DNA of 54,388 nt from the NCBI GenBank assembly GCA_003646025.1, contig QNDR01000004.1, forward strand, positions 1 through 54,388, read 5' to 3'. How positions within the stretch are numbered: position 1 is the stretch's first letter; every line of letters starts with the position of its first letter. Of this stretch, positions 7,622 through 16,465 are shown piece by piece. This DNA is from Candidatus Fermentibacterota bacterium. Its GTDB lineage: Bacteria; Fermentibacterota; Fermentibacteria; Fermentibacterales; JCC-6. The notes under the pieces are model-generated. The model made no database searches. It was not told where the DNA came from and worked only from the letters and a program-made list of their open reading frames with translations. The position numbers and the translations under genes are program-made.

Positions 7622-9699
7622 TTGTTTTTGTATTGTTTCAGCACTTCTTCAGCTACAGACGCCGGAACAGCTTCGTAGTGTTCGAACTGCATGGAAAAAG
7701 ACGCTCTTCCCTGTGTGGAATTGCGAAGATCGGTTGCGTAACCGAACATTTTAGACAGAGGAATCCTGGCTTTGAATTCCTTCGCATTTCCACGGGCTTC
7801 CATGGCTACAATAATTCCCCGACGTTCATAAATACTTCCCGATACTCCGCCGGAGTATTCTTCGGGAGTAACGATTGAAACAGTCATCATCGGTTCAAGA
7901 AGGCGGGGACTGCACTTCATAAAGGCCTTCTTAAATGCATTTCTTGCACAGATACGGAATGCCATTTCTGAGGAATCAACTGCGTGGCTGGATCCGTCTT
8001 TCAGTGTGACTTTAACATCCACAACGGGGAAGTTGCAGTAAACTCCGTCTTTCATGGCGTCTATTATACCTTTTTCCACCGATGGTATGTATTCCTTTGG
8101 TATGTTTCCGCCCTTTACAGAGTTCTTGAATTCAAACCCGCTTCCTGCAGGAAGAGGTTCAAGAGTGAAAATAATCTGGGCGAACTGACCCTTTCCACCG
8201 GTCTGTTTCTTGTATCTTTCGTTCCAGTCCACAGAACCCATAATGGTTTCTCGGTAGGCCACCTGTGGTTCATTGACTTCAACCTCAACAAAGAATTCCC
8301 GCTTTATTCTGTCTATAAGTATTTCAAGATGCAGTTCCCCCATGCCGGAAAGAACGGTATCTCCTGTTTCATCGTTGGTTTCCACGGTAAAAGTAGGGTC
8401 TTCCTCAGCCAGTTTTGTCAGGGCGTCGGTGAGTTTGTCTCTGTCCTGCCTCTTAACCGGTTTTACAGCAATGCTCAGAACCGGAGCAGGGAACTCGATG
8501 GCTTCAAGAATGATCGGATCTTCCGGTGAACAGAGCGTGTCACCTGTAATGGTGTCTGAAAGACCAATGACAGCACCTATCTCACCTGTATTCAGTCGGT
8601 CAACAGCCTCACGCTTGTTGGCATGCATTCTAAGTATCCTGCCAACTCTCTGTTTCTTTCCGGTTGTAGAATTCAGTACGTGGGTTCCTGCTTCAAGAAC
8701 TCCGGAGTAAACTCTGGTGTAGATCAGTTTTCCCGTGTGTCTGTCTGTTACCACCTTGAATGCAAGGGCTGCAAGGGGACCATCGTTTCCAGGTTCACGC
8801 TGTTCAAGCTTTCCCGTTTTGCTTCTGCCGCTGATAGGCGGAAGGTCAACAGGAGATGGGAGATAAGAAATTACAGCATCAAGCAGCCTCTGTATACCTT
8901 TGTTTTTGTAGGCGCTTCCACAAAGAACAGGGCAGACCAGCCCGGAGTGGGTTGCCTTCCTGATTGCTGCCGAAAGCTCGGATTTTGTTATCTCTTTATC
9001 GGCACAAAACTTGTCAAGGAGTTCTTCATCAACTTCGCTCACTTTTTCAACAAGGATCAGTCGCTGTCTGGCTGCCAGGGCTTCCATTTCTGCAGGAATG
9101 GGTTTTTCTTCAAATATTTTTCCGCCGGACTGTTCGTCGTAGTACACCGCACAGTTGTCAACCAGGTCGATGATGCCCAGGAAATCGCCATTTTTACCGG
9201 TAATGGGAATAGTAATGGGGATGGCATTGGCATTCAGCCTTGAGTGCAGTTCTTTCACAACGCCGTAAAAATCTGCGCCGGACCTGTCCATCTTGTTGAC
9301 GAATGCAATACGGGGAACACTGTACTTGTCCGCCTGACGCCAGACAGTTTCACTCTGAGGCTCAACGCCGCCTACTGCGCAGAAGAGAGCGATGGTTCCA
9401 TCCAGTATTCTAAGGCTTCTTTCTACCTCTACAGTAAAATCCACATGTCCCGGGGTATCAATCAGGTTGATCTGATGCCCTTTCCATTCTGTTGTTGTGG
9501 CAGCGCTTGTAATGGTAATTCCCCGCTCCTGCTCCTGGGCCATCCAGTCAAGTGTGGCCTCTCCGTCGTGTACTTCACCGATTTTGTGAGATTTTCCAGT
9601 GTAGTAAAGGATTCTTTCGGATACGGTGGTTTTACCGGCATCAATGTGAGCCATTATTCCTATATTGCGAATCATCTCGAGATTGTAATCCCGTGCCAT
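7618..9699 (-). CDS. fusA: Translation elongation factor G
   Basis: EF-G catalyses GTP-dependent translocation of tRNA and mRNA on the ribosome. At 693 residues it is full length. G-motifs are AHIDAGKTT (17-25), RGITI (59-63), DTPGH (81-85) and NKMD (135-138), and the remaining EF-G domains continue to the C-terminus. The ATG is preceded by a clear ribosome binding site (GGAGAAGG on the minus strand near 9704-9711). It does not sit in the usual str operon with rpsL, rpsG and tuf; the only linked gene is crcB downstream. A promoter candidate lies at 9740-9769. Sequence features are those of canonical EF-G rather than a divergent paralogue. Confidence 0.97.
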
Positions 9700-9739
9700 C
9701 TATCCTTCTCCGTTCCTGATTGATTGAAATTAGCGCCCG

Positions 9740-9769
9740 AATATACCCCGGTACCTGTGTTGTGTGCAA
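9740..9769 (-). promoter_or_regulatory. Predicted sigma-70-type promoter for fusA-crcB
   Basis: On the minus strand TTGCAC (9769-9764) and TATATT (9745-9740) are separated by 18 bases. Transcription would start near 9733 and give a leader of about 33 bases that contains the fusA ribosome binding site. The rest of the 9700-9839 gap shows no convincing terminator for queF. Confidence 0.5.
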
Positions 9770-9839
9770 TTCTTCACAGAATTACTCTTTTCACCTTCAG
9801 CTGGGTGAGGAACGTGGTATGTTTCAGAAAGACAGGCAA

Positions 9840-10238
9840 TCAGTCACGGTCTCCGGTGTATTCTGCTTCTACTGTAATTGAGATACCACCTCTTACGCCG
9901 AAATCCGCCTGAACACGGCACCATCTGGGATGGATGGCTTCCACAAGATCGTCCAGGATCATGTTCGTGACGTGTTCGTGAAAAACACCCCTGTTGCGGT
10001 ATGTCTGAAAGTACAGTTTAAGAGATTTTGATTCCACTATCCTTTTATCCGGTATGTAGGTGATGGTGACTGTGGCAAAATCAGGCTGGCCTGTTTTCGG
10101 GCAGACACAGGTAAACTCATCAGTTGAAAGGGTCACTGTGTAATCCCGTTGGAGATTCCTGTTCGGGAACGCTTCCAGTCCCCTGAATTCATCCGTGGAT
10201 CTCCCAAGGAGGGATAGCTCGTTTAGATCATTTGTCAT
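9840..10238 (-). CDS. queF: NADPH-dependent 7-cyano-7-deazaguanine reductase QueF
   Basis: QueF reduces preQ0 to preQ1 with NADPH, a late step of queuosine biosynthesis for tRNA wobble modification. This is the short unimodular form (132 residues). The catalytic cysteine is C46 in FTCVCPKTGQPDF, with the partner aspartate D53, and the NADPH-binding family motif ESKSLK is at 69-74. A FHEH segment supplies further conserved residues. The ATG lies 11 bases inside the end of the upstream kinase gene, so the two are probably co-transcribed. No other queuosine gene is in this window. Confidence 0.95.
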   Translation of the reverse strand: MTNDLNELSLLGRSTDEFRGLEAFPNRNLQRDYTVTLSTDEFTCVCPKTGQPDFATVTITYIPDKRIVESKSLKLYFQTYRNRGVFHEHVTNMILDDLVEAIHPRWCRVQADFGVRGGISITVEAEYTGDRD

Positions 10239-12747
10239 GTCTCTCCAGTTCGGAACCTGTTATTCTGTGTATTATGGACACGAGATCACGCATCGCATAC
10301 GGTTTGTTAAGAACTTCATGAGTTTCTTTCATGTCTGCGAGCCAGTCACCTGCGTAGCCTGTTGTGAACACAACTGGAACTTCTGCACCCAGAGCGACGA
10401 TTTTCCTGTAGGCCTCAGGTCCGCTCATTTCAGGCATCATTACATCAAACACAAGTATTTCAATCTCCCTGCGTCTTTTCTTAAAAATCTCTACAGCTTC
10501 TTTGCCGTTTTTTGCCCGGATTACCTTTATCCCGGCCATTCCCAGCCCCTCAACTGCAAGTGTCATTACACGTTGGTCATCTTCAGCAAGAAGTATACAC
10601 ACAGGATGGTTATCCTTAGATTCAGTCTGCTTAAGGGGGATTGTTTCGTTTTTATGCGGTTGATGGTACAGATGATTCTCTTCCAGCGCAGGGAAGTAAG
10701 CTGTTATCTCGAGTCCCCTGCCGGTTCTGTTCCTCACATTGATGTATCCGGAGTGTTCTTTAAGAACTCCAAGAACGGTTGCAAGACCGAGCCCGGTACC
10801 GCCGTTAAGCAGTTTTGTTGTGAAGAATGGTTCGAATACGTTTTTCAGATGGTCTTCGGGAATTCCAGGTCCGGTGTCTGTTACGGTAACTGCGGCATAG
10901 TTTCCCGGTGAAAGAGTACCGCTTGTTACAGAAAGCGGTTCAATTATGGAAATTTCTTTAAGAACAATGTTCAGCTCTCCACCAAGAGGCATTGCATCCC
11001 TCGCGTTTACGCAGAGGTTCATGAAGACCTGCTCTATCTGCGACGGGTCTCCGTGGACCCATGTATCACGAGAGGTGATATCTGAAGTAATTACGATATT
11101 CTCTTCCATTATTCTTGAAAGAAGCTTAAAAAACCTGGTTGTGAGAGAACTGAGGTTTACATTCTGAAGCTGGGATTTTTTGTCTCTGCTGAACAGAAGA
11201 AGGCCTCTTACAAGTTCCCTCCCTTTCTCGGCCGCTTCAACAATGGGTTTCGAAACATCTGTAATAACCGGGTCATTGTCTGAAACCCTGTCAAGAATGT
11301 CGCAGTACCCTGTTATTACATGCAGAAGGTTGTTGAAGTCGTGGGCGACACCGCCAGCCAGTCGGCCTATGGCTTCCATTTTCTGAGACTGCATATCATC
11401 GATCTTTTTCTGAATCAGAGACAGTTCTTTCTCCTTTATCACTGTTGTATCAAACAGAATACCGGAAATGGTGCGGGGCTTTCCTCTCGCGATTGCACCG
11501 ATGTTGAACCATCTTGTTACAGAGTCCCTGCCTCTGCAGCTGATCTCGCCGAAGAAATTGTCTATTGTGCCGGAAACGAGATCATTCAGTTTCCTTTGTG
11601 TTTCTTCAGGGAGTGAAGATTCCCGAACCCATCTGGAAAAACTGGGCGGGTCTTTCAGCGGTGTGTAGGAAAGAGTATCGAAGAAGGAATTATCAGCCCT
11701 GAGACAGTCTTCTTCCGGTGTGGCATTCCAGATCACGGCACCTGATGCCTCAAGAGCAAGCTGAAGCTGATCAAGTCTGGTCTGCAGAGTTCTTTCAACT
11801 CTTATGAGCTTTGAGATATCAACAGAAACGACAAGAACGGATTTTTTGCTTTTGTAAATGAGTTCCCTGGCATGGACAAGAAAATGCAGAGAACCTCCGT
11901 GTTTGAGCGCAATCTCTATTTGAACTGGAACGCCAGGTGTTGATGAAAATGTCTGGTTGAGGAACTCTTTTAACCGGTTTTCTGTATCGCGGTCTACGAT
12001 CCGGTAAAGATCGCGTTCGATATCTTCAAATTTGCTGAATCCGTATTTGTCCGTAAGGGACTGGTTTACATATGCTACACTGGTTCCCTGCAGAACTATG
12101 ATACCAATGTTCTCGTCAAGTGAAATTTCTTCAAACAGATTGTTTGCTTCAGTAAGCCTGTCTATGACAAGCTGATGTGCATTTTCTCTTTTTCTGATGA
12201 AGAAGATGGCAAGTATTGACAGGATTGACGCAACACAAAGGGGAAGAGCTGCAAGATCGAGGACCTGCCTGTAAATAGAATGTGGCAGAACAAATATCCA
12301 TGCAATGTAAACTGCCGCTGAACCGAATCCGGCAACCATCTGAAACACGACATCGGGAATATGAAGTCTTGATTTTTCTGCCAGTCTGAGAAGCAGACCG
12401 AAAACAAGGGCAGAGAGAATAATACCTATACCCGGCATCGTTCCGGTTCCACCGATGAGAAGCCTGTAAATCAGAAGAGGAACTGCCGCGAGAGCTCCTA
12501 CCACATAGCCGCCGGTAAGGGCAGCTACTACAAGGACAGGTGTACGCATATCGATCAGAACACCAGGAAGAACCTCAACACTGAATAGAATAGCCAGAAT
12601 TCCGCAGGCAGCAAAAACAAAACCCTGAATCAGTACGCTGATGACCGGTTTTCCAACCCTCCACCGGGACAGCCGGAGAAGGAAGAAGAACGATACTATC
12701 AGCAGTGCCGAGTTTTCAATCAGTGCCTTGAGGATATCAATTCTCAA
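10228..12747 (-). CDS. LytS-type membrane hybrid histidine kinase with receiver
   Basis: An 839-residue membrane sensor. The N-terminal 200 residues form several transmembrane helices with the 5TMR_LYT pattern seen in LytS/YhcK proteins (IDMRTPVLVVAALTGG, then a glycine-rich RLLIGGTGTMPG). One clear PAS domain (about 210-320) and a second PAS-like region (about 335-445) follow. The kinase core has H469 in GRLAGGVAHDFNN, NLCVNARDAM as N-box, DTGPGIP as G1 and GGTGLGLA as G2. The C-terminal receiver (about 715-830) has D768 in FDVMMPEMSG. In LytS the 5TM domain relates to cell-envelope signals; the signal here is unknown. The start is TTG with an AGAGG seven bases upstream. It sits between gatE and queF in one orientation without obvious functional link. 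Confidence 0.9.
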   Translation of the reverse strand: MRIDILKALIENSALLIVSFFFLLRLSRWRVGKPVISVLIQGFVFAACGILAILFSVEVLPGVLIDMRTPVLVVAALTGGYVVGALAAVPLLIYRLLIGGTGTMPGIGIILSALVFGLLLRLAEKSRLHIPDVVFQMVAGFGSAAVYIAWIFVLPHSIYRQVLDLAALPLCVASILSILAIFFIRKRENAHQLVIDRLTEANNLFEEISLDENIGIIVLQGTSVAYVNQSLTDKYGFSKFEDIERDLYRIVDRDTENRLKEFLNQTFSSTPGVPVQIEIALKHGGSLHFLVHARELIYKSKKSVLVVSVDISKLIRVERTLQTRLDQLQLALEASGAVIWNATPEEDCLRADNSFFDTLSYTPLKDPPSFSRWVRESSLPEETQRKLNDLVSGTIDNFFGEISCRGRDSVTRWFNIGAIARGKPRTISGILFDTTVIKEKELSLIQKKIDDMQSQKMEAIGRLAGGVAHDFNNLLHVITGYCDILDRVSDNDPVITDVSKPIVEAAEKGRELVRGLLLFSRDKKSQLQNVNLSSLTTRFFKLLSRIMEENIVITSDITSRDTWVHGDPSQIEQVFMNLCVNARDAMPLGGELNIVLKEISIIEPLSVTSGTLSPGNYAAVTVTDTGPGIPEDHLKNVFEPFFTTKLLNGGTGLGLATVLGVLKEHSGYINVRNRTGRGLEITAYFPALEENHLYHQPHKNETIPLKQTESKDNHPVCILLAEDDQRVMTLAVEGLGMAGIKVIRAKNGKEAVEIFKKRRREIEILVFDVMMPEMSGPEAYRKIVALGAEVPVVFTTGYAGDWLADMKETHEVLNKPYAMRDLVSIIHRITGSELERHDK

Positions 12748-12760
12748 AATTAGACCTCTG

Positions 12761-14452
12761 TCAGGCTGGTTTTACCGCCTTGAAGGCTGCCTCCGGTGTA
12801 TCTGAAGGATTCAGAGACATCCAGTCAAGAATGTATCTGGCTCCTTTTGTACTGATACCGTTTTCGAAGCACCATGTCAGTGTGTCTCGAATCCCGTCTT
12901 CCGTAAGTGTTTTCATCCAGTCTTTGCCTTCCCGTCTGGAACCGCGCATCCGGTCAGCCAGCAGGCTGGCAAGTGAAGCTGGTCTGAACTCTGTTCTCGA
13001 CAGCAGTTCATCGAACACATCGCACAGTTCCAGGTTAAGCAGCCGATCGATGAGGTGTTCACTGAGTCCCAGTTTTCTGTAGGTGTCTCTTCTTTCCCAG
13101 GGTTTTTCAGGGAGCAGTTTCTGCAGTCTTTCAAATGTGTCCGGCGTAATGGCCTGCGGTGGGAGATCGGTGTCAGGATACATCCTGTCTGCGCCTGGAA
13201 GAATTCTTTCAAAATCAGTTGTTCCACCTGGTTGTGCCTGTCTGGTTTCTGGAGGAACACCCTGGAACGCCTCCTGTATCCTGATACAGATTTCGTTAGC
13301 CGCAGTCTGAAGATCTTCCTCCGGACCGGCGAATACAATTGCCGCGTCGTCGTGAGAGATGCCCATGGTTGATCGAAGCATGTCCGAAGCGCAGTTAAGA
13401 ACGGGCTGGTATTCAAGGCAGGCAATAACCCTGACCCGCCCTCTGAGTTCGTCCAGGAATGTACGCTCAGGCTGGGTTGGCCAGTCTACGAACTTCCTGA
13501 ATCCTGGAATTATTATCACTGCAGCACTGTGTTGTCTGGATTCAAGAAGGTCGGGGTCAAAGTTCTCGCCTGCAGCTTCAACCCTGCTGAGAGCAGTGTA
13601 TTCCGGTTTGAGCTGGTCTGCCGTGAAATCGGAAGTTTTCAGCTGATACCGCAGGTCGAGCAGCGCTTTCTGTCTGTAGGCTTCAATTCTGGAAAGTGGT
13701 TCTATGTAACCTATCTTAGCCACACCTTTTATCTCGATTCTTGTACCACCCCGGATAGACACGTTTACGTCCTGTCTCACGGAGCCGATTCCTCTTCTGA
13801 CCAGGTGTGTTGATCGCATGGTTTCGCCTATGAGCCTGGCAGCAAGTGCCATCTCATGAGGTGTGTAGAGTTCCGGAGCGGTCACCGGCTCAACAAGCGG
13901 TATGGACAGACGGTCTGTGCGAAACACAACATGATGCCCTCTGTCAGAAACTTCGCGACAGGCGTCTTCCTCCATGCTCATCTGTATGAAGTGGAGTTCT
14001 CTTCCGAGAAAGGGTACTACTCCATTTACTCCTACAATTGCGGTTCTCTGAAAACCAGTTGGAATAGAGCCGTCAAGGTACTGCTTTCGTGTTATGTGAA
14101 TTTCATCCACCAGAGACATGTTGAACATCATGGCTAGTTGCAATGCAATACTTACGGCTTCAGGATTTGCCTGAAAAGGCGGAGTGTCATCCATTTCATA
14201 GGTGCATACGGAATCGTTGTAAAGCAGATAATGAACCTGTTTTTTCGTCTTGAATTCCATGAGGGCAGTTCCGTCATACTCTCCGAATTCGCTGAGAGTA
14301 GGGCGCATGTGACGGAGGATTTCCTGATCATGCTTATCGTTACGGATCCTCGTTGAACACCGGCAGAACAGCTTTCCGGATGTTGCGAGCTGCTGATGGG
14401 TCTCAAGACCCCCTCTGAAACCAAGCTCGCGAAGTTCAGTGTAATCCTGCAA
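12761..14452 (-). CDS. gatE: Archaeal-type glutamyl-tRNA(Gln) amidotransferase subunit E (GatE)
   Basis: GatE is the kinase/transamidase subunit that, with the asparaginase-like GatD, converts Glu-tRNA(Gln) to Gln-tRNA(Gln) in archaea. The 563-residue product shows GatE rather than GatB features: GGLETHQQL with KLFCRC (C30, C32), DSVCTYEMDDTPP, EIHITRKQYLDGS and GFQRTAIV. A GAD-type insertion occupies about 305-400 (VIIIPGFRKF...), which GatB lacks, and PGADRMYPDTDLPP follows at about 420. The remainder is an alpha-helical tRNA-binding tail. It is slightly shorter than archaeal GatE (about 620). TTG start with AAAGG seven bases upstream. No gatD, gatA or gatC is in the window. The family is regarded as archaeal, so this points to transfer or to an unusual bacterial lineage. 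GatB is the main alternative, but the GAD insertion argues against it. Confidence 0.88.
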   Translation of the reverse strand: MQDYTELRELGFRGGLETHQQLATSGKLFCRCSTRIRNDKHDQEILRHMRPTLSEFGEYDGTALMEFKTKKQVHYLLYNDSVCTYEMDDTPPFQANPEAVSIALQLAMMFNMSLVDEIHITRKQYLDGSIPTGFQRTAIVGVNGVVPFLGRELHFIQMSMEEDACREVSDRGHHVVFRTDRLSIPLVEPVTAPELYTPHEMALAARLIGETMRSTHLVRRGIGSVRQDVNVSIRGGTRIEIKGVAKIGYIEPLSRIEAYRQKALLDLRYQLKTSDFTADQLKPEYTALSRVEAAGENFDPDLLESRQHSAAVIIIPGFRKFVDWPTQPERTFLDELRGRVRVIACLEYQPVLNCASDMLRSTMGISHDDAAIVFAGPEEDLQTAANEICIRIQEAFQGVPPETRQAQPGGTTDFERILPGADRMYPDTDLPPQAITPDTFERLQKLLPEKPWERRDTYRKLGLSEHLIDRLLNLELCDVFDELLSRTEFRPASLASLLADRMRGSRREGKDWMKTLTEDGIRDTLTWCFENGISTKGARYILDWMSLNPSDTPEAAFKAVKPA

Positions 14453-14540
14453 AGTAATTCCTTTCGATGCTATGAAATTAGTATAAAATTGTTGGCACGA
14501 AAATAACGATTATCAGGGCCGGGGTAAACAGGTACAGGTA

Positions 14541-14569
14541 TTGACCGAATGAATCTCCGGGGCTATTAT
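14541..14569 (+). promoter_or_regulatory. Predicted sigma-70-type promoter for hpf-hprK-ptsHI
   Basis: TTGACC (14541-14546) and TATTAT (14564-14569) are separated by exactly 17 bases. Transcription would start near 14576, leaving a leader of about 95 bases before the hpf ATG. This is the only strong promoter pattern I can see at the head of the long plus-strand gene run. The same gap carries a TATACT-like element on the minus strand (14485-14480) that could serve gatE, but without a good -35. Confidence 0.6.
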
Positions 14570-14603
14570 CGAAATGTGAGATTGGAAGTCAAACCTTATG
14601 TAG

Positions 14604-14632
14604 CCGCTTCTCCCGCATGTTCGGGGGGGCGG
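14604..14632 (+). promoter_or_regulatory. Leader hairpin upstream of hpf, possible attenuator
   Basis: CCGC-TT-CTCCCG (14604-14615) pairs with CGGGGG-G-GCGG (14622-14632) around a CATGTT loop, giving ten pairs with one small internal loop and one G-T pair. It is followed by a U-rich TATTTAATTT (14633-14642). It lies within the predicted 5' leader, 39 bases before the hpf ATG. The shape fits a weak intrinsic terminator or attenuator, but no alternative pairing was identified. Confidence 0.35.
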
Positions 14633-14671
14633 TATTTAATTTGGCTTCCGTTTAACATGAAAGGAGTTACC

Positions 14672-15220
14672 ATGAACGTCGAGATCAGCGCAAGGCACTT
14701 TGAACTAACCGATTCTCTGAAGGAACATGTTTATGAAAAACTGTCCGTTCTGGACAAATTCTACGACGGAATCGATGATGTTCATGTTGTTCTTGAGCTT
14801 TCGTCCGGAATGAGCAGGTCACATGTTCAGTTGCGGGGAGACCGATTGAGGCTCGACTCCCGGTCACAGGGACATGATATGTACTTTTCTTTCGATGAAT
14901 GTATTTCTTCTCTCGAGAGGCAGCTTAGAAGATTCAAAGAAACCCACCATGACCATCCTCACAGGGAAAACAACGGTAAAAACCCTGTTTCCGGTGCGTG
15001 GTACATAGCGGCAGAACCATCGGAGCTCACGTCCCCGGTTCTTGTGGAAGATGCCGCGGTTTTGAAAAAGTTTTCAACCAACGACGCAATGACAGAGTTC
15101 GAGGTAAGTGGCGACGACAGAAATCTGATATTCTACAACACGGAAACGAACAGCTTCAGTGCTGCATACAGAACTTCCAGCGGTGCTACTCAGGTTGTTG
15201 AGCTTACACGCAAGGAATAG
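14672..15220 (+). CDS. hpf: Ribosome hibernation promoting factor, long form
   Basis: Long HPF binds the 30S A/P-site region with its N-terminal domain and dimerises ribosomes through a C-terminal domain when growth slows. The N-terminal RaiA/HPF fold covers about residues 1-100 (MNVEISARHFELTDSLKEHV, helix-strand pattern). A polar linker rich in His follows, and the C-terminal dimerisation domain is at about 135-182 (DAMTEFEVSGDDRNLIFYN, then AAYRTSSG). The ATG at 14672 was chosen because AAGGAG lies six bases upstream and the family start matches; the frame is open upstream to 14549 but shows no conserved sequence. hprK follows after five bases, a linkage seen in other bacteria with regulatory PTS genes. 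Confidence 0.9.
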   Translation: MNVEISARHFELTDSLKEHVYEKLSVLDKFYDGIDDVHVVLELSSGMSRSHVQLRGDRLRLDSRSQGHDMYFSFDECISSLERQLRRFKETHHDHPHRENNGKNPVSGAWYIAAEPSELTSPVLVEDAAVLKKFSTNDAMTEFEVSGDDRNLIFYNTETNSFSAAYRTSSGATQVVELTRKE

Positions 15221-15225
15221 AAAAA

Positions 15226-16191
15226 GTGTTGGATCGCTACCCAGATCCGGAAGCATTTTCTGTCGGCGTAATGTATGAGAGGCTGGGGAAAAGGCTTGAA
15301 CTTGAGGATATAACCGATACATGGGGATACGACCGTATGGTCGTGTCCCCGGACATCAGCCGTCCCGGTCTGTGTCTTTCCGGTTATACATACAAGTTCA
15401 TGCACGACAGAATCCAGATTTTTGGTGAGACTGAGATCACACTGCTGAAGAAACTTTCTCCACAGGAAAAACAGGCTGCCGTGAAGAATGTCTTCAATTT
15501 TCCAGTGGTGTGCAGTATTATTACGAAAGGTCTTACTCCTCCGGATGAGCTTGTCTCTGCATCACAGTCTTCGGGTTCTGCACTGTTTGTTTCTCCTCAG
15601 GATACAACTCCTCTGATACATGACCTGACTGATTTTCTAAGCGAGGTATTCGCACCTCATGTTTCTCTTCACGGAACCCTTGTGGATGTTTACGGAGAAG
15701 GTCTTCTTGTCATGGGAAGAAGCGCTATCGGAAAGAGTGAGGCAGTGCTGGGTCTGGTGGAGAGAGGGCACAGGCTTGTTGCTGACGACCTTGTTCGGGT
15801 GAGAAAAACAGGGAACCGTCTGATCGGTTCCGGTGATGCAATGCTTGGATTCCACATGGAGATAAGAGGAATCGGATTTGTCAACATTGCCGAACTGTTT
15901 GGCGTGGGCGCGATAAAGGAGATGCAATCGGTTGATCTTGTTGTCAGATTATTTGATACCGACCTCGACGATGAAGCCGACAGGTCAGGGCTTATCGGTA
16001 AACATATGAGTATAATGGGAGTTGACGTTCCCATGGTGGAGATACCGGTGCTTCCGGGCAGAAACATTACACTGCTTCTTGAAGTTGCTGCAATGATGAA
16101 TATTCAGGTAAAGGATACCGGCAGTACATCTGCTGAACGACTTAACAGGAAACTCATTGCCCGTATGGGCAGAAAAAGGCTGAGAGAATAA
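15226..16191 (+). CDS. hprK: HPr kinase/phosphorylase
   Basis: HprK phosphorylates HPr on Ser46 with ATP or PPi and removes that phosphate with Pi. The 321-residue protein has the N-terminal domain (about 1-130) and the catalytic domain with H149, a P-loop GRSAIGKS (164-171), and HRLVADD with D187/D188. The HprK signature EIRGIGFVNIAELFGVGAI is at about 210. Start is GTG at 15226 (or TTG at 15229), preceded by AAGGAA overlapping the end of hpf. Placement directly before ptsH and ptsI says all components of the Ser/His phosphorylation switch are made together. Confidence 0.95.
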   Translation: MLDRYPDPEAFSVGVMYERLGKRLELEDITDTWGYDRMVVSPDISRPGLCLSGYTYKFMHDRIQIFGETEITLLKKLSPQEKQAAVKNVFNFPVVCSIITKGLTPPDELVSASQSSGSALFVSPQDTTPLIHDLTDFLSEVFAPHVSLHGTLVDVYGEGLLVMGRSAIGKSEAVLGLVERGHRLVADDLVRVRKTGNRLIGSGDAMLGFHMEIRGIGFVNIAELFGVGAIKEMQSVDLVVRLFDTDLDDEADRSGLIGKHMSIMGVDVPMVEIPVLPGRNITLLLEVAAMMNIQVKDTGSTSAERLNRKLIARMGRKRLRE

Positions 16192-16192
16192 A

Positions 16193-16465
16193 ATGACAGA
16201 AAAAAAGGTGGTTGTTCCCAACAAGCTGGGGATACATGCCCGTCCAGCCGCACTGATAGTAAGAGCTGCTGTGGAGTTTGCCTGTGATATATGGGTGGAA
16301 AGCCCGGCAGACAAAGTCAACGCAAAGAGCATAATGGGAGTAATGACCCTGGCAGCCTCCGGGGGTACTGAAATTGTTGTTTCCGCAGATGGATCTGATG
16401 AGGTTGAAGCTGTGGAGGCAGTTGCGGAGGTAATCAGAAGCGGTTTCGGCGAAGAGATGATTTAG
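16193..16465 (+). CDS. ptsH: Phosphocarrier protein HPr
   Basis: HPr is the small phosphocarrier of the phosphotransferase system. At 90 residues it has the His active site, H15 in NKLGIHARPA, and the regulatory serine, S46 in KVNAKSIMG. Both the EI-dependent and the HprK-dependent phosphorylation sites are therefore present. It starts one base after the hprK stop and ends directly at the ptsI start. No EII permease genes are nearby, so the role is probably regulatory, although permeases elsewhere in the genome cannot be excluded. Confidence 0.96.
   Translation: MTEKKVVVPNKLGIHARPAALIVRAAVEFACDIWVESPADKVNAKSIMGVMTLAASGGTEIVVSADGSDEVEAVEAVAEVIRSGFGEEMI

Follow-up and report, generated by a model that had tools for sequence, protein, structure and literature searches.

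A tail-less, archaeal-type GatE encoded together with GatD and GlnRS in a Fermentibacterota genome

Introduction

The amidotransferase GatDE has been described as the archaeal enzyme acting on Glu-tRNA(Gln), where it uses the A1:U72 pair and the D-loop of the tRNA. According to a review from 2022 it is now found only in archaea, which are said to lack GlnRS (PMC9499178). Bacterial GatCAB catalyzes the same type of reaction, and its GatB subunit contains homologous cradle and helical domains. At the elbow of tRNA(Gln), the small D-loop is sensed by the C-terminal tail of GatCAB and GatDE (PMC4810234), and the activity of yeast GatFAB was abolished in vitro when GatB lacked its YqeY domain (PMC4027206). 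In a survey of 547 bacterial genera from 2014, no bacterium was known with both routes to Gln-tRNA(Gln); here, GatCAB of the Bdellovibrio, Deinococcus and Thermus type of bacteria, which possess GlnRS and AsnRS as well, is believed to produce Asn on tRNA(Asn) (PMC4206432). For bacterial GatDE, no report was found in the open-access literature (CC-licensed PubMed Central). NCBIfam models already allow annotation pipelines to name such genes, which may thus carry labels in databases without discussion in papers.

Here, a stretch of 54,388 nucleotides (the window) from a Candidatus Fermentibacterota bacterium (contig QNDR01000004.1) was analyzed, which encodes a GatE. Together with the GatD of the same genome, it shares with archaeal GatDE from Methanothermobacter (2D6F) and Pyrococcus (1ZQ1) the two subunits, the folds and the catalytic residues, as well as a GAD-like insertion at the same place in GatE and asparaginase motifs in GatD. 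In contrast to archaeal GatDE, it resides in a bacterial host, lies outside the canonical archaeal clade and co-occurs with GlnRS. Furthermore, the host tRNA-Gln carries U1-A72 and G73, the insertion is not seen by PF02938, and the whole clade is devoid of the tail domain. Bdellovibrio, Deinococcus and Thermus likewise have an amidotransferase beside both direct synthetases, but here the enzyme is GatDE, which serves Glu/Gln in archaea.

Identity of the gatE gene

The gene encodes a tail-less form of subunit E of the Glu-tRNA(Gln) amidotransferase (563 aa) and is located at positions 12761-14452 on the minus strand; read on the plus strand, the same coordinates contain stops. A ribosome-binding-like GAAAGGA is present 6 nt 5' of the TTG start (14459-14465, minus strand). 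The initial annotation had placed a 563-residue open reading frame at exactly these positions, to which the minus strand is added here, and had called the product a GatE in a bacterium. Profile models, phmmer and structural comparison all agree with this call. The protein passes the GatE model TIGR00134 (404.5 bits, cut-off 319.55) and lies narrowly below the cut-off of NF003107 (455.5 versus 456 bits), whereas the GatB equivalog models reach at most 124 bits, all far under their cut-offs. By phmmer, the archaeal GatE chains 2d6f_C (4.5e-94) and 1zq1_C (2.9e-88) are matched near full length, in contrast to the best GatB chain (2.6e-19), which is matched over part of the catalytic domain only. 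Also the AlphaFold model (pLDDT 89) has its best structural matches in 1zq1 and 2d6f, with TM values of 0.67-0.73 by query length. GatB of GatCAB was rejected as an identity, since the GatB models stay below cut-off and the genome contains no match to GatA; the tree does not place the protein within GatB either. The gene is therefore firmly identified as gatE. A dN/dS of 0.05 toward its nearest relative indicates that it is under strong purifying selection.

Domain architecture, GAD-like insertion and lost tail

The catalytic (cradle) domain common to GatB and GatE comprises residues 15-440 (13133-14410, minus strand; PF02934, 154 bits) and is interrupted by an insertion. In a set of 41 GatEs from bacteria and archaea, E17, H19, E161-E162-D163, D228, N230, R238, E240 and K242 do not vary, and the catalytic residues of the window GatE are intact.

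An AspRS-like (GAD) insertion is a feature of GatE and absent from GatB. In the window protein, the corresponding region spans about residues 290-402 (13247-13585, minus strand), is collinear with the insertion of archaeal GatE and matches it in profile-profile comparison. Here, the insertion of the window's own clade matched that of bacterial GatE at 99.95% and that of archaeal GatE at 93%, and bacterial and canonical archaeal insertions matched at 99.8%, compared to less than 1% for the controls. PF02938 gave no match on the window GatE even at E<=10, although it does match canonical archaeal GatE. The GAD-like insertion proposed initially is therefore retained as a homologous element that this Pfam model fails to see; taken literally, the failure is the refuting outcome named initially, but it does not refute the insertion, because the profile-profile comparison shows homology.

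The helical domain, residues 437-560 (12773-13144, minus strand), was delimited from the AlphaFold helices, and the protein ends here without a YqeY-like tail. This C-terminal tail of about 60 residues is missing throughout the window's clade: all sampled members have 0-9 residues beyond the end of the window GatE, whereas other bacterial and archaeal GatEs continue for 40-78 residues, mostly 51-78, apart from one case at a contig end. In line with this, PF02637 was not detected in the window GatE, although it matches canonical archaeal GatEs and most of the other bacterial GatEs tested. Since only 13 bp separate the gatE stop from the next called gene, no remnant of the tail is evident. The absence of the tail makes the window GatE a variant rather than a typical member of the family, in which nature has deleted a domain regarded as essential for tRNA-dependent amidation.

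Partner and tRNA-charging genes of the host

The host is represented by a Fermentibacterota MAG of 136 contigs that is 90% complete, in which presence and absence of genes were judged from profile searches. Among the matches listed, its closest records are MAGs of Candidatus Fermentibacteraceae with 95% identity. The initial annotation had left the partner of GatE open, but gatD is encoded elsewhere in this genome, on a different contig (C20:28285-29490; 461 aa), with 480.9 bits for TIGR02153 at a cut-off of 324, and its product aligns with the GatD of 1zq1 through the asparaginase motifs. GlnRS (C24:14360-15934, 738.7 bits) and AsnRS (C21:23591-24925, 562 bits) are also encoded. GatA gave no match in this 90% complete MAG, nor did it exceed the cut-off in any other searched genome of the order, and gatE is the single GatB/GatE-type gene of the window genome. 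Based on these gene assignments, the cell encodes the direct GlnRS route as well as an archaeal-type amidotransferase. The unusual route to Gln-tRNA(Gln) suggested before is thus only half the story, since GlnRS is present too and GatA was not found.

Two tRNA-Gln genes (UUG and CUG) are present in the host. Both display the bacterial pattern of U1-A72 and G73, and neither has the A1-U72 pair of archaeal-type tRNA(Gln). GluRS was seen in the window genome as a contig-end fragment only; in close relatives, it has an Arg aligned with Arg358 of Thermus thermophilus. Such a residue marks a discriminating GluRS, a rule that is not general and whose meaning varies by phylum (PMC3927822).

The sole AspRS-like gene seen in the window genome (L264:883-2226, on contig C60) is of the short archaeal type (448 aa) and coexists with AsnRS in the absence of a GatA match.

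Gene neighborhood

Within 12761-16465 of the window, gatE stands apart from gatD and is divergent from a series of hpf-, hprK-, HPr- and ptsI-like genes. The gene order around gatE, between bacterial genes, is kept in seven loci of the window's clade, and gatD of this clade is located on a different contig, behind an rpoN-like gene. Genus g2, which belongs to the same family, has gatE and gatD as an operon. Across phyla, the two genes are usually adjacent and were the only ones found conserved together; no other neighbor recurs that could provide a functional hint.

A relic, in which GlnRS superseded GatDE and the tail loss is a first sign of decay, would fit the redundancy with GlnRS and the fact that the operon is gone in the window's clade but kept in genus g2. 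Nevertheless, the dN/dS of 0.05, the invariant catalytic residues and the same truncation with open frames in every clade genome sampled argue for a maintained gene, and decay is considered quite improbable.

Distribution in bacteria

GatDE had been regarded as specific to archaea in the initial annotation. This view does not hold: one scan returned at least 583 related loci, and nearly all of the 80 listed are bacterial. Among the matches listed are Fermentibacterota, Zixibacteria, Ignavibacteria, Calditrichota, Acidobacteriota, Myxococcota, Aminicenantes, Planctomycetota and Gemmatimonadota, others, and two archaeal-labelled MAGs. Judged from these sequences, GatDE is common in bacteria of many phyla rather than the outcome of an isolated transfer.

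From the 80 listed loci, 47 GatE-bearing genomes including that of the window were drawn. GatD exceeds its cut-off in 45/47, GlnRS is present in 39/47 and GatA in 15/47, leaving 32/47 without GatA. Broken down, 28 have GlnRS without GatA, 11 have both, four have GatA without GlnRS, three have neither and one has a partial GlnRS only. Two closed single-contig chromosomes, CP070758 and CP054675, contain gatD, gatE and glnS but gave no match to GatA.

These chromosomes rule out MAG contamination by archaeal DNA as a general explanation. For the window itself, the fragmentation of the host MAG into 136 contigs would allow it, but the flanking genes are bacterial, synteny is kept in the seven loci of the clade and the tree position lies outside canonical archaeal GatE, so that contamination is extremely improbable.

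In a broader set of 388 bacterial genomes, each at least 90% complete, the GatE cut-off was exceeded in 46. Outside the window's order, GlnRS occurs in 17 of 27 GatE-positive genomes (counted by the author's own reading) versus 143 of 337 GatE-negative ones, a weak link (Fisher p 0.045, uncorrected for kinship). One genome of the window's family, G015 (95% complete), has GlnRS without GatD and GatE matches; here GatDE seems dispensable, and the genome represents a natural control in this respect.

GatDE as the main route to Gln-tRNA(Gln), with GlnRS minor or conditional, would be in line with two intact genes that are conserved across the genus and family. However, most of the 10 surveyed GatE-positive genomes without a GlnRS match carry further GatB-type matches instead, and no clear case of GatDE as the sole route was seen among the well-assembled genomes surveyed. 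As also the discriminating appearance of GluRS and the loss of the tail speak against it, such a main route is clearly unlikely.

Phylogeny and transfer

In a GatE tree built by a quick method with SH-aLRT support only, the 21 canonical archaeal GatEs form one clade with full support. The bacterial GatEs fall outside of it, as do a small number from MAGs of archaea (Thermoplasmatota and others), and the window's clade of eight sequences is fully supported. A recent transfer from canonical archaea is unsupported, since the tree puts the window GatE outside the 21-sequence clade. The acquisition by transfer proposed initially is thus not borne out as a recent import, the protein belonging to a mostly bacterial GatE group, but the old transfer between the domains may have gone in either direction, because all archaeal sequences, canonical and unusual, as one group were not rejected by the AU test (p-AU 0.445).

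A group uniting the window's clade with the GatE of genus g2, which has the tail and is encoded in an operon, was rejected (p-AU 0.008). A single origin for both is therefore dismissed, and the family holds two GatE lineages.

Proposed mechanism

The window gene would encode the GatE subunit of a functional tRNA-dependent amidotransferase, GatD-GatE, from a lineage that is mostly bacterial. Here, the asparaginase-like GatD would free ammonia from Gln or Asn, GatE would use ATP to activate the side-chain carboxylate of Glu on tRNA(Gln), and the activated Glu would be amidated to yield Gln-tRNA(Gln). Since GlnRS is present and GatA absent, here and in most GatDE bacteria examined, a back-up or repair role is most likely, in which GatDE would convert misacylated Glu-tRNA(Gln) and most likely not be the sole route. 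A conditional second route, or the repair of Glu-tRNA(Gln) formed by misacylation, would be the simplest reason to keep the enzyme beside GlnRS. Because the elbow-binding tail is lost in the Fermentibacterota clade, the tRNA would have to be selected by the cradle and helical domains, by GatD or by a further partner. That a functional GatDE amidates Glu-tRNA(Gln) in a back-up or repair role, with altered tRNA recognition in this lineage, is the preferred explanation, although its chances are judged as about even. The identity, the intact catalytic residues, the partner gene, the occurrence together with GlnRS, the purifying selection and the tail loss are established, whereas the reaction, the substrate and the repair role are inferred. 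Points against this explanation are that the source of Glu-tRNA(Gln) is hypothetical and that GluRS of near relatives has the discriminating-type Arg. Further points against it are the absent tail, the U1-A72 instead of A1-U72 in tRNA-Gln, the weakness of the link to GlnRS outside the window's order and the apparent dispensability of GatDE in G015.

The surveyed genomes contradict the claim that GatDE is confined to archaea and, if GatDE works as in archaea, also the claim that no bacterium has both routes. Why cells keep both becomes a directly testable question. This bears as well on the argument that the specificity of GatDE molded tRNA(Gln) in archaea and prevented GlnRS from entering them.

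tRNA genes beside gatDE loci

The tRNA genes adjoining gatDE loci are mostly tRNA-Gln (L043, L046, L047, L229 and L230), found in two related Deltaproteobacteria and at three archaeal loci. The others are one tRNA-Leu and two tRNAs that combine a stop anticodon with a tRNA-Gln-like acceptor end; 36 loci from canonical archaea, the majority of which are shorter, have one tRNA-Phe only. The tRNA-Gln neighbors tie the enzyme to tRNA(Gln) and support the ordinary reaction.

This linkage also argues against a changed substrate, for example Asp-tRNA(Asn) supplied by the archaeal-type AspRS or Glu on a carrier tRNA. Such a change would explain why the tail was cleanly lost clade-wide while the rest is strongly conserved, and GlnRS already supplies Gln-tRNA(Gln). 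Furthermore, the only AspRS-like gene exceeds the cut-off of NF003483, a model for 'aspartate--tRNA(Asn) ligase' (519 versus 353), and gatE of G123 and G256 is found beside a stop-anticodon tRNA and a radical-SAM gene. On the contrary, archaeal GatDE is described as a Glu-tRNA(Gln) enzyme (PMC9499178), AsnRS makes amidation of Asp-tRNA(Asn) unneeded, and the same AspRS misses the cut-off of TIGR00458 (357 versus 368). A changed substrate is therefore regarded as unlikely. Somewhat less doubtful, but still tentative, is the broader idea that the tail was lost since GatE either amidates another aminoacyl-tRNA or is handed its tRNA by a new partner, for instance GlnRS or AspRS. If true, a tRNA-dependent amidotransferase would have been re-targeted in nature and would operate next to a direct pathway that is complete.

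The genomes G123 and G256 represent two genera of one family. Their stop-anticodon tRNAs, with the anticodon UUA in one genome and CUA in the other, precede the gatE match by about 120 nt and have G73 and CCA, with U1-A72 in one case and an A1.A72 mismatch in the other. Both genomes have extra GatB-type matches and no GlnRS match. In locus L270, a tRNA (10136-10210) is followed by gatE (10277-12244) and a radical SAM/SPASM gene (12225-13226); in L271, the corresponding positions are 8449-8523, 8539-10554 and 10490-11554. The stop-anticodon tRNA possibly serves limited recoding or as a carrier tRNA. For family f35, a global reassignment of UAG or UAA as the origin of its stop-anticodon tRNA was rejected, since both codons end ordinary open reading frames in the sampled stretches; limited recoding may occur in this family.

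Finally, two archaeal-labelled MAGs, G073 and G087 (Thermoplasmatota and Euryarchaeota), contain a GlnRS gene that adjoins archaeal-type tRNA-Gln genes with A1-U72 or lies between them (L266:1740-3649 and L268:3226-5833, respectively), the tRNA-Gln of G073 having G73. Both also encode an archaeal-type GluRS, model-confirmed in G073, and a bacterial-like GatDE.
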